IMG/VR virus record: IMGVR_UViG_3300028025_000991
Location: 1-25,429 of that record
Source of the DNA: a virus
DNA length: 25,429 bases
Reading direction: 5' to 3' (one strand)
Position 1 is the stretch's first letter. Each line of letters opens with the position of its first letter. This document shows positions 8,703-12,146 of this stretch, piece after piece. The translations under genes and the position numbers were made by a program. The notes beneath the pieces are model-generated. The model was not told the origin of the DNA, ran no database searches, and saw only the letters and a list, made by a program, of their open reading frames with translations.

Positions 8703-8848
8703 TGGGTGAGACAGTGACAATCTCAAAGGAAGAGTATGATCAGCTAGTGGAAGACAGAATCTGGTTGGAATGTTTACAAGCTGCTGGTGTAGATAACTGG
8801 AATGGGTATGATTATGCCATTGAACTATTTAATAAGGAACAAGAATGA
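8702..8848 (+). CDS. Small hypothetical phage protein (48 aa)
   Basis: A 48-residue ORF from ATG 8702 (one-base overlap in TAATG) to TGA 8848, overlapping the reductase start in ATGA. The product has the pattern TISKEEYDQLVEDRIWLECL followed by AAGVDNWNGYDYA. Such short proteins (an S-x-E-E-Y-D-x-L helix and a G-V-D-N-W loop) recur in tailed phages but have no known function. The tight coupling on both sides supports it as a gene. Confidence 0.65.
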   Translation: MGETVTISKEEYDQLVEDRIWLECLQAAGVDNWNGYDYAIELFNKEQE

Positions 8849-10755
8849 ATAACTACCTACCTACAGACTATCAGTCTTTTATTGCAACCTCACGCTATGC
8901 CCGCTGGCTAGAGGAACAAGGTCGTCGTGAGAACTGGGGTGAAACAGTTGACCGATACATGAAGAATGTAGTGTCACCCTTGACCTTTGCATCTGATCTT
9001 AAGGTTTACGGAGATATTGAACAGGCTATCCTTAGCCTAGACATTATGCCTTCTATGCGGGCTGTTATGACTGCTGGCCCTGCGCTGGATCGTGATAACA
9101 CTGCGGGATACAACTGCTCGTATATGCCTGTAGATGACCCTAAAGCTTTTGACGAAGCTATGTTCATCCTGCTGTGTGGCACTGGTGTAGGCTTCTCTGT
9201 GGAGCGTCAGTTCATCAGCAAGCTCCCAGAAGTACCAGAGAATATGTACCAGTCCGAGACTACTGTTGTGGTTAAGGACAGCAAAGAAGGCTGGGCTAAG
9301 TCACTACGACAAGTGATTGCCTTGTTGTACTCTGGTGAAATCCCTAAGTGGGATGTGTCTCTGGTTCGTCCTGCTGGTGCTAAGTTGAAGACCTTTGGTG
9401 GTCGTGCATCAGGCCCAGCGCCTCTGGTTGACCTGTTTCAGTTTGTTATCAGTAAGTTCAAGGAAGCCAAGGGACGTAAGCTATCTTCTATCGAATGCCA
9501 TGACATCATGTGTAAGATTGGGGAAGTTGTCGTAGTTGGTGGTGTTCGTCGTAGTGCTATGATTTCTTTGTCTAACTTGTCAGATGATCGTATGCGTTAT
9601 GCTAAGTCTGGTAATTGGTGGGAGAACAACCCTCAGCGTGGTCTGGCTAATAACTCTGTTAGCTATACTGAAAAACCAGATGCTGTGAGTTTCCTTCGTG
9701 AGTGGACTGCACTTGTGGAATCAGGTTCTGGTGAGCGTGGCATCTTCAATCGTCAGGCATCCAAGAAGCAGGCAGCAAAGAATGGTCGCCGCAAGACTGA
9801 CTTTGAGTTTGGCACTAACCCATGCTCAGAGATTATCCTGCGTCCCTATCAGTTCTGCAATCTGACGGAAGTTGTTGTACGTGCTACGGATACGATCAAG
9901 ACACTGGAAGAGAAGGTTCGCCTTGCCACCATCTTGGGTACGATCCAGTCAACCTACACCAAGTTCCCCTACTTGCGTAAGATTTGGCAAACCAATACAG
10001 AAGAAGAACGTCTGCTTGGTGTGTCTCTGACGGGGATCATGGACAACCCCCTGATGACTACAAAGAATGCTGGTCTATCTCAAACCCTGGAGCATCTGAA
10101 GAATGTTGCAATTACTACTAATGCTGAGTGGGCTGAACTGCTTGGGATCCCTGTTGCTGCTGCGATTACTTGCGTTAAACCATCGGGGACAGTCAGCCAG
10201 TTGGTTGATAGTGCTAGCGGTATCCATGCACGTCACAGCGAGTATTATATTAGGACTGTTCGTGGTGACAATAAAGACCCTCTAACGCAGTTTATGAAAG
10301 ACCAAGGTATCCCATCTGAACCTGATGTGATGAAGCCTACACAGACCACCGTGTTCAGCTTCCCAATGAAGGCCCCAGAGGGTGCAGTGGTAACGGCTGA
10401 CCTTAGTGCTATTGACCAGCTAGAGATGTGGTTGGCCTATCAGCGTCATTGGTGTGAGCATAAGCCTTCTGTTACTATTAACGTGAAGGCAAGCGAGTGG
10501 TTCGAGGTAGGTGCTTTTGTTTACAAGCACTTTGATGAAATGTCTGGCGTATCCTTCTTGCCATACAATGAGCATACCTACCAGCAAGCACCTTATCAAG
10601 AGATTGGTAAGTCCGAGTATGAGAAACTACTAGCTGTTATGCCAGTAGCTATTGACTGGGCCAAGCTTGCAGACTATGAACAGGAAGACAATACCTCTGG
10701 CTCACAGACGATGGCTTGCTCTGGTGATGCTTGTGAGATTGTTGACTTGACCTAA
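8845..10755 (+). CDS. nrdJ: Adenosylcobalamin-dependent (class II) ribonucleotide reductase, monomeric RTPR type
   Basis: A 636-residue enzyme that reduces ribonucleotides (probably triphosphates) to deoxyribonucleotides with a B12 cofactor, supplying DNA precursors without oxygen. The catalytic residues align with Lactobacillus leichmannii RTPR: C91 in AGYNCSYMP (RTPR C119); N325-P-C327-S-E329 (N406, C408, E410); C338 exactly 11 residues on (C419); and a C-terminal redox pair C625/C630 in ACSGDACEI, with the same four-residue spacing as C731/C736. Other family blocks include FILLCGTGVGFSVER, VGGVRRSAMISL and CVKPSGTVSQ. Shorter than RTPR (739) but complete. AAGGAA precedes ATG 8845. SIO1-like roseophages and cobaviruses carry this enzyme class. 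Confidence 0.95.
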   Translation: MNNYLPTDYQSFIATSRYARWLEEQGRRENWGETVDRYMKNVVSPLTFASDLKVYGDIEQAILSLDIMPSMRAVMTAGPALDRDNTAGYNCSYMPVDDPKAFDEAMFILLCGTGVGFSVERQFISKLPEVPENMYQSETTVVVKDSKEGWAKSLRQVIALLYSGEIPKWDVSLVRPAGAKLKTFGGRASGPAPLVDLFQFVISKFKEAKGRKLSSIECHDIMCKIGEVVVVGGVRRSAMISLSNLSDDRMRYAKSGNWWENNPQRGLANNSVSYTEKPDAVSFLREWTALVESGSGERGIFNRQASKKQAAKNGRRKTDFEFGTNPCSEIILRPYQFCNLTEVVVRATDTIKTLEEKVRLATILGTIQSTYTKFPYLRKIWQTNTEEERLLGVSLTGIMDNPLMTTKNAGLSQTLEHLKNVAITTNAEWAELLGIPVAAAITCVKPSGTVSQLVDSASGIHARHSEYYIRTVRGDNKDPLTQFMKDQGIPSEPDVMKPTQTTVFSFPMKAPEGAVVTADLSAIDQLEMWLAYQRHWCEHKPSVTINVKASEWFEVGAFVYKHFDEMSGVSFLPYNEHTYQQAPYQEIGKSEYEKLLAVMPVAIDWAKLADYEQEDNTSGSQTMACSGDACEIVDLT

Positions 10756-10766
10756 CTGTTACAATA

Positions 10767-10795
10767 CCTAGGACAGGATTAGTTTTTGTCCTAGG
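10767..10795 (+). terminator. Hairpin after the reductase gene (possible terminator or attenuator)
   Basis: CCTAGGACA at 10767-10775 pairs with TGTCCTAGG at 10787-10795, a 9-bp perfect stem with an 11-base loop, followed by only TTTC. The weak T-run makes it a leaky terminator or an mRNA-stabilising hairpin. It occupies most of the 61-base gap between the reductase and the Acb2-like gene and would separate high reductase expression from the downstream genes. Confidence 0.5.
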
Positions 10796-10816
10796 TTTCA
10801 TATCAAAGGAAATAGA

Positions 10817-11047
10817 ATGACCAAAGGCGAATACCGAGTAGGGATCAACTTCAACCCTGCTAATGATGATATGGTTGGTAGGATCAAGCGGGCTGCTGCT
10901 GACCTGATTGATTTGATTGAAAGTGTTCTTGCTCAAACAGCAGATTCCGTACCTGAAACACAGCGACTCAAAGCTTTGGCACAAACCGAGATTGAGAGTG
11001 CTGCTATGTGGGCGGTGAAGGCAGCTACAAAACCTAGCTGGGAATAA
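10817..11047 (+). CDS. Acb2/Tad1-type small helical protein (candidate cyclic-nucleotide sponge)
   Basis: A 76-residue protein with AAAGGA before ATG 10817. A short N-terminal segment (YRVGINFNPANDD, 6-18) leads to a helix (about 19-40), a brief linker, then a second helix (about 46-69) with RLKALAQTEIESAAMWAVK and the ending AATKP. The pattern G-x-x-FNP(S/A)-N-D-x-V-x-x-IK ... A-x-T-x-x-E-x-AAMWAVKA-x-TK is one I associate with the Acb2/Tad1 hairpin domain group. Characterised members sequester the signalling nucleotides of CBASS and Thoeris defences. The family link is from memory of its pattern, and sponge activity here is inference. It lies in a lightly packed part of the early region, after a hairpin. 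Confidence 0.55.
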   Translation: MTKGEYRVGINFNPANDDMVGRIKRAAADLIDLIESVLAQTADSVPETQRLKALAQTEIESAAMWAVKAATKPSWE

Positions 11048-11218
11048 GGATAAACGTCTGACCCCACAGAAATGTGGACTCTGTGGATGTTACACAGTGA
11101 GTAGGGTTGATCGCCTACAAGGTAATTGGGATAGGTCACAGCTAGTGCTTATTGTACTTGTCTGGCCTAGGGTTATAGCGCCCCTCGTCCTACCTCTAGA
11201 ACATAACAAGGAGTTAAC
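11048..11218 (+). other. Longest gap of the window, structured and without a clear gene
   Basis: This 171-base stretch between the Acb2-like gene and glutaredoxin is the largest gap between genes. It contains two short inverted repeats, CCACAG/CTGTGG (11064-11069 and 11081-11086) and GTAGG/CCTAC (about 11101-11117), and a weak promoter-like pair, TTGTAC and TATAGC, spaced 16 bases (about 11145-11182). A Cys-rich reading (CGLCGC) is open here but lacks ATG, GTG or TTG before the cysteines. It ends with AAGGAG for the glutaredoxin start. No tRNA fits. Confidence 0.45.
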
Positions 11219-11449
11219 GTGTACACAATTATTGGAAGACCTGACTGCCACTGGTGTGACAAAGCTAAGCAACTGCTTACAGAAAAAGGGCGAGAGTTTC
11301 AGTACATCGACTGCACTGAGAATACTTGGGTAGTAGCTATCATGTTGAAAGGCGGATACCGAAAGGTTCCACTGGTTATTCAACATACCGAAGTCATTGG
11401 TGGTTATACAGAGCTAGAAGAGATGTTTAAGGAACTGGCGGATGGATGA
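11219..11449 (+). CDS. grx: Glutaredoxin
   Basis: A 76-residue thiol-disulfide oxidoreductase of normal glutaredoxin size. The redox motif C10-H-W-C13 follows the first strand (YTIIGRPDC), the cis-proline is P51 (RKVPLV), and GGYTEL at about 61-66 is the usual glutathione-site loop. The start is GTG at 11219, five bases after AAGGAG; no in-frame ATG would keep the first strand and CxxC. Its probable role is electron donor for the phage ribonucleotide reductase one gene cluster upstream, whose C-terminal cysteine pair needs re-reduction. It ends 8 bases inside phoH. Confidence 0.9.
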   Translation: MYTIIGRPDCHWCDKAKQLLTEKGREFQYIDCTENTWVVAIMLKGGYRKVPLVIQHTEVIGGYTELEEMFKELADG

Positions 11450-12146
11450 GGGTAAGCCTAAGGGCAAACGAGTGAGTCGCTACAAGAATGCACCAGAGGA
11501 AGCTGCTGTCCGTACTGTAAAGCTTGTTGCTATGAATGATACACAGCAGCGGTATATCTCTGCGCTACAATCCCACAATCAGATCATTGTGACTGGCTTT
11601 AGTGGCACAGGGAAAACTTTCATTGCCGCATCCCATGCAGCTAACCTGTATGCTAATCGAAAGATTGACCGTATCATTATCACTCGACCTAATATTGCTG
11701 TAGGTAAAGACCTTGGATATCTTCCCGGAACTCTTGAAGAGAAGTACACCCCGTGGATCATGCCCGTGCTAGACGTGCTGGAACAACAGCTAGGTAAGAA
11801 TGTTGTAGAGACGGGGATGAAGAATGGTAACATCCAGATGGTTCCCCTCTCTGTTATGCGTGGGCGTAGCTTCAATAAGTCTTTCATTATTGTGGATGAA
11901 GCACAGAACCTTACGATCCATGAGATGAAAATGCTCTTGACTCGTGTGGGTAAAGAATGTACTATTGTCATCAACGGTGATATCAAACAGAGTGACATCA
12001 ATCAACAGAGTGGTCTTAGTAAGATTCTGCATCTAGCTAAGAAATACAACATGGATATCCCAACCATTGAGTTTGGTGTTGATGATATTGTTCGTAGTGA
12101 TATCTGTAAGCAGTGGATTATTGCATTTGAAACGGAGAAGTTATAA
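11442..12146 (+). CDS. phoH: PhoH-like P-loop ATPase
   Basis: A 234-residue PhoH family protein. After a basic N-terminus (1-25) comes the ATPase core: Q35 in the DTQQRYISAL adenine-recognition-like segment, Walker A G52-FSGT-GKT59, the PhoH block RPNIAVGKDLGYLPGTLEEK (82-101), Walker B IIVDEAQN (D152, E153), and a NGDIKQSD sensor-like motif (178-185). The family is widespread in marine phages. Its function is unsettled: it was first tied to phosphate starvation and some members look like RNA helicase/nuclease partners. AAGGA precedes ATG 11442. It overlaps glutaredoxin by 8 bases and the DUF3310 gene by one. Confidence 0.93.
   Translation: MDEGKPKGKRVSRYKNAPEEAAVRTVKLVAMNDTQQRYISALQSHNQIIVTGFSGTGKTFIAASHAANLYANRKIDRIIITRPNIAVGKDLGYLPGTLEEKYTPWIMPVLDVLEQQLGKNVVETGMKNGNIQMVPLSVMRGRSFNKSFIIVDEAQNLTIHEMKMLLTRVGKECTIVINGDIKQSDINQQSGLSKILHLAKKYNMDIPTIEFGVDDIVRSDICKQWIIAFETEKL

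Follow-up and report, generated by a model that had tools for sequence, protein, structure and literature searches.

The DNA analysed here (the window) is an entire IMG/VR virus record of 25,429 bases, in which a small open reading frame lies between the genes of a ribonucleotide reductase and a glutaredoxin. An earlier note, made from the sequence alone, had assigned its product to the Acb2/Tad1 hairpin group of anti-CBASS and anti-Thoeris proteins. This raises the question whether the gene encodes a protein that captures the cyclic nucleotides of host immunity, and how it came to lie among genes of nucleotide metabolism. The features of the locus are as follows.

8845..10755, plus strand: nrdJ, B12-dependent (class II) ribonucleotide reductase (Pfam); upstream flank of the insertion site
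10766..10796, plus strand: 13-bp hairpin between nrdJ and the acb2-like gene (fold z-score -3.26; locus comparison)
10805..10810, plus strand: AAAGGA, probable ribosome-binding site of the acb2-like gene, 6 bases 5' of the ATG (sequence reading)
10817..11047, plus strand: acb2-like gene, 76 aa, Acb2/Tad1 hairpin domain at residues 13-71 (PF24729; hhalign with shuffle controls; AF2 model)
11056..11194, plus strand: conserved structured RNA element of ~139 nt (covariance model R1, 135.5 bits, E = 3.6e-36; covariation)
11219..11449, plus strand: glutaredoxin gene, grx (PF00462, E = 4.4e-9); downstream flank of the insertion site
11442..12146, plus strand: phoH-like gene (PF02562, E = 4.4e-65); downstream flank

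The acb2-like gene and its product

The reading frame starts with the ATG at 10817, its stop codon ends at 11047, and the 76-aa product contains FNPANDD, IKRAAADLIDLI and ESAAMWAVKAATK, all of them as the earlier note had described. The hairpin 5' of the gene (more stable than expected) and the metabolic surroundings that it had mentioned were likewise found, the neighbours being a class II ribonucleotide reductase upstream and glutaredoxin and PhoH downstream; a DUF3310 protein is also encoded downstream. Relatives of the protein are encoded on 469 IMG/VR stretches, and comparison with two homologues of moderate divergence indicates purifying selection (dN/dS 0.11 and 0.15); the frame is thus not a chance reading. 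A dN/dS of 0.76 was obtained against the relative on L004, whose N-terminal half resembles the window copy and whose linker (DDQANLGEI) is that of L026. The high ratio is explained by this combination, which we take as a sign of recombination inside the gene among the window, L004 and L026 copies.

Family membership and predicted fold

PF24729 (Acb2_Tad1_hairpin) is the sole Pfam match of the protein (52.3 bits, E = 6.6e-14; curated cut-off 27 bits), and this family and no other was matched by all 61 members of an alignment (A1) drawn from the best 80 of the 469 IMG/VR stretches. As a Pfam name may be over-extended, separate alignments were built from functionally proven Acb2 proteins, namely the PaP2/PaMx33 type (p26; A4, 42 sequences) and the T4 Vs.4 type (A5, 13 sequences). 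With hhalign, A1 was matched to the former with a score of 43.5 (probability 94, E 1.3e-7) and to the latter with 38.2 (probability 91, E 1e-6), whereas 100 column-shuffle controls each reached at most 20.6 and 19.8, and reversed alignments scored 12.8 and 8.4, respectively. In other searches, phmmer linked the protein weakly to solved Acb2 (E = 0.62), NCBIfam gave no match, and BLASTP against T4 Acb2 gave no alignment, so that the link to T4 Acb2 is made by profile methods only. Since Pfam and our own controlled profile comparisons agree, we regard membership in the Acb2/Tad1 hairpin superfamily as established and, judged from sequence, virtually certain. The earlier assignment to this group, and the profile search that had been proposed for it, were in this respect confirmed. 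We thus view the protein as a new and divergent addition to a known family of counter-defence proteins. To our knowledge, no protein of its clade, recognisable by the pattern FNPS...MWAVKAATKP, has been subjected to functional tests.

The AlphaFold2 monomer consists of helices only (residues 3-8, 18-35 and 42-70; mean pLDDT 85.6), and this predicted short N-terminal helix followed by a helical hairpin agrees with the layout that the motifs had suggested. In a Foldseek search of the PDB with this model no Acb2 was matched at E<=10; a control search with PaP2 Acb2 recovered T4 Vs.4 (E = 4e-3) besides the structures of PaP2 Acb2 itself. Among the predicted viral structures of BFVD, the top matches carry the name Acb2/Tad1 hairpin, the best being a clade-mate from an uncultured Caudovirales phage (A0A6J5LWM4; TM 0.85, 54% identity). 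Further clade-mates, with 49% identity over residues 1-69, occur in Flavobacterium phages, FCV-1 among them. Both sets of proteins already carry annotations, either the domain name or the label hypothetical, but belong to other phage groups and have other genomic locations than the window gene.

Comparison with proven sponges

With the Acb2 of PaP2 and PaMx33 (p26; PDB 8H2J, 8H2X, 8IXZ) the window protein shares the Pfam domain, a short N-terminal segment followed by a helical hairpin, and a similar length (many members have 74 aa). It differs in its low identity (~25% over 55 columns), in a loop after the aromatic residue that is ~3 residues shorter, in a lysine replacing the arginine R85 of PaMx33 and in its own KGEYRVGINFNP N-terminus. 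T4 Vs.4/Acb2 (PDB 7UQ2) has the Pfam domain and a C-terminus of the form ...MWA.(K/R)A...P in common with the window protein, but with 88 aa it has a longer linker.

In T4 Vs.4 (PMC10097602), Y8 and F82 stack on cGAMP, hydrogen bonds and salt bridges are formed by Y8, H11, K23 and R79, and the hexamer breaks up when L29, A66, A73 or A77 is mutated. The hhalign alignments equate F12 of the window protein with T4 Y8 and PaMx33 Y11, K24 with T4 K23 and PaMx33 K26, K68 with T4 R79 and PaMx33 R85, and T57 with PaMx33 T74. R50 corresponds to PaMx33 R67 (conserved in 38 of 42 PaMx33-type proteins), which we take to be a residue binding cyclic trinucleotides; the T4-type proteins lack a conserved arginine at this position. 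Among the 61 members of A1, F12, R50 and K68 are invariant and K24 is found in 60, and this set of pocket equivalents is more conserved than random position sets (p = 0.007; p = 0.017 among core positions only). A55, A62 and A66 are equivalent to the T4 interface residues A66, A73 and A77; A55 and A66 are invariant in A1 and A62 is always A or G, but taken alone the interface positions are not significantly above background conservation (p = 0.18). Unlike the pocket residues above, T4 F82, which stacks on the ligand, is replaced by an invariant threonine (T71) and H11 by A15 or, in other members of the clade, serine. Loss of the F82 equivalent is compatible with function because PaMx33-type Acb2 also lacks it, having an alanine (A88) there; the replacement suggests a different ligand preference. 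Other invariant residues are specific to the clade, namely E60, T71-K72, N13-P14 and an N-terminal KGEYRVG.

The gap between nrdJ and grx

To place the gene in its genomic context we compared 80 contigs with the nearest nrdJ, 67 of which extend at least 1 kb downstream. In the DNA retrieved around nrdJ, the acb2-like gene was found in only one of the 80 (L207), and relatives devoid of it include phages with a 91-93% identical ribonucleotide reductase and unchanged gene order. The nrdJ, grx and phoH proteins of L209, for example, are 93-98% identical to those of the window, yet the gene is missing. The gap (10756-11218 in the window; also examined in L207-L212, L293-L302, L342 and L343) holds hairpin, acb2 and RNA in the window and L295/L004, acb2 and RNA without the hairpin in L207, hairpin and RNA in L211 and L343, the RNA only in L209 and L294, the hairpin only in L208, and none of the three in L210. 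A tRNA-Arg is present on its own in L212 and together with the RNA in L293, L300, L342 and L343. Endonuclease-type reading frames occur in L293 (GIY-YIG, E = 2.3e-9) and, without a Pfam match, in L296, L299 and L302. The gap therefore appears to be a hot spot in which modules are mixed, and because it is missing from relatives whose flanks are the same, we interpret the acb2-like gene as an optional accessory insert between nrdJ and grx. The accessory placement proposed by the earlier note thus stands, the modules being combined independently of each other.

The hairpin at 10766-10796 is not part of an acb2 cassette, as it is kept in L208 and L211, which lack acb2, and missing from L207, which carries it; we assign it to the nrdJ 3' region. 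A role as intrinsic terminator was rejected, since a terminator scan was negative and no T-run follows the stem.

Several other insertions were observed in and near the gap. A 179-aa reading frame directly follows a full nrdJ in L296 (2901-3440), L299 (5316-5855) and L302 (7002-7541); it has no Pfam match, its end, GDACEIVDLT, repeats the C-terminal codons of nrdJ, and it resembles the insertion of a homing endonuclease that duplicated its target. In L343, nrdJ is interrupted between residues 326 and 328 by an insert of ~780 bp (~1712-2489) that holds a GIY-YIG-like frame (recognised by eye) and is a candidate intron or inserted endonuclease. In L004/L295, the inverted-repeat pairs TGTTCCCGAACAGGAACA and TTGTTCCCGAACGGGAA are inserted between the RNA and grx.

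Proposed function and alternatives

We consider it probable that the product is a cyclic-oligonucleotide sponge of the Acb2 type, likely serving counter-defence by sequestration of these molecules. It would be produced early, alongside the nucleotide-metabolism genes of the phage, and the analogy to T4 Vs.4 and PaP2/PaMx33 Acb2 suggests that it may assemble into a hexamer. Cyclic dinucleotides would be held between protomers by stacking on F12 and by contacts of K24 and K68 to the phosphates, and R50 may point to an additional site for cyclic trinucleotides. With CBASS-type signals sequestered, the death effector of the host would stay off, the gene itself riding as accessory cargo in the nrdJ-grx gap. 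Of 298 genomes sampled from the family of bacteria around Roseivivax, 29 have SMODS nucleotidyltransferases of the CBASS type above the cut-off and 12 have PF24729 itself, a frequency that makes CBASS targets no more than plausible. Several observations weigh against the sponge reading. The A1 clade is highly conserved (17 invariant columns), which is unusual for a gene in an arms race, and the exchanges at F82 and H11, the lack of a match to PDB Acb2 and the weak phmmer hit also count against it.

The anti-Thoeris half of the original claim received no support. A Tad1-type sponge sequestering gcADPR would be compatible with the PF24729 model, which spans the two-helix hairpin of both Acb2 and Tad1. 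In Tad1, however, the gcADPR pocket is formed by the hairpin together with an N-terminal four-stranded antiparallel beta-sheet (beta1-beta4; PMC12043709), and both sheet and pocket are missing from the window protein, for which no strand is predicted. Because 76 aa are too short for the beta-domain and the protein aligns to Acb2 over nearly its whole length, we assign it to the Acb2 type and consider a Tad1 function very improbable. The changes at T71 and A15, together with the clade's own invariant residues and the lack of a PDB fold match, could also mean that the ligand was lost or changed and that the helical oligomers now act as a protein-binding or structural factor; the positive and aromatic pocket positions are, however, kept at 98-100%, and PaMx33 Acb2 is a proven sponge despite lacking F82, which makes this unlikely.

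A role in metabolism, in which the Acb2 fold would bind a (cyclic) nucleotide and thereby buffer or control the ribonucleotide reductase and glutaredoxin module rather than block immunity, would fit the strong conservation of the family and its location: the gene directly follows nrdJ in the window, L207 and L295/L004 and is found near grx or phoH in L012 and L076/L077. Against this stands its rarity among the nearest nrdJ loci, including those with 91-93% identical reductases, and most other family members adjoin portal, terminase, primase or helicase genes, which argues that the family is not tied to nucleotide metabolism. We therefore regard a metabolic role as quite unlikely. Cyclic trinucleotides such as cA3 and cAAG are CBASS signals and are also used by type III CRISPR. 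A more speculative variant of the sponge reading, which we hold to be doubtful but conceivable, is that the FNPS...MWAVKAATKP clade, spread over hundreds of mostly uncultured phages, forms a distinct Acb2 class with a shifted ligand range; having lost the F82 stack and kept R50, it may favour cA3 or cAAG or a signal not yet described. Since the clade is large, a single binding result would help to annotate hundreds of genes in phages.

A structured RNA next to the acb2-like gene

The RNA element at 11056-11194 comprises six stems. In five of these (25 pairs), 96% of cells are paired, compared with 36-47% when the partners are slid. It includes a covarying stem, a stem of variable length and a first hairpin alternating between GNRA and UUCG loops. 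Folding of the single sequence was no better than that of shuffled controls (z = -0.54), so the case for the RNA rests on comparison between sequences. The covariance model found 15 strong copies (>119 bits) in the sources searched; besides the window, copies are present in L207, L209, L211, L290, L293-L302, L342 and L343, often adjoining a tRNA-Arg(TCT). No family was matched in Rfam 15, no copy was found by the covariance model in eight isolate genomes, and BLAST against 50,697 phage records gave no match; the element is possibly an undescribed phage non-coding RNA. Although the start codon of grx follows shortly after it, the tRNA-Arg intervenes in several phages and the L301 copy is located away from nrdJ and grx, which makes a free-standing RNA more likely than a grx riboswitch. 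The RNA is a neighbour of acb2 and is not required by it.

Identity of the phage and wider occurrence

The earlier note had labelled the phage SIO1-like. This label was abandoned: nrdJ is nearest to a cobavirus (83.5% identity to Lentibacter phage ICBM2), whereas the structural genes and the gene order match those of the HMO-2011-type phages CRP-345, CRP-207 and CRP-603. The window shows the HMO-2011-type order of DNA polymerase, nucleases, MazG, nrdJ, glutaredoxin, PhoH and a convergent large gene, and a 1172-aa minus-strand protein and a tail gene also match roseophages of this type (CRP-2, -9, -207, -345 and -603). Among named relatives of the DNA polymerase none is close (best 54%). By gene content and order we thus consider the phage a relative of the HMO-2011 type. 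In eight related isolate genomes (CRP-2, -5, -9, -207, -603, -804, ICBM2 and HMO-2011), PF24729 was not found above the cut-off. If the sponge reading is true, HMO-2011-type phages, which are among the dominant phage groups of the sea, would have an optional means to counter cyclic-oligonucleotide immunity, and this in turn would imply that their hosts use such immunity. As the nrdJ-grx gap is an easily recognised exchange site, it could be mined for further counter-defence genes.

One and the same Acb2-hairpin relative (48% identity) was also observed on seven separate contigs (L325-L331) of one Rhodobacteraceae MAG (CATOSB01), which suggests a multicopy prophage or mobile element. Furthermore, in HMO-2011-type roseophages the left arm ends with a gene for a small protein of 68 aa:

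L205, 7269-7475: CRP-207 gp38
L203, 7227-7433: CRP-603 gp43
L201, 7183-7389: CRP-2 gp43

CRP-207 gp38 and CRP-603 gp43 were rejected as alternative Acb2 genes (17.2 and 15.3 bits, under the cut-off of 27). All three proteins have the motif ...MW..R.A in common and are possibly a further, divergent Acb2-like family.
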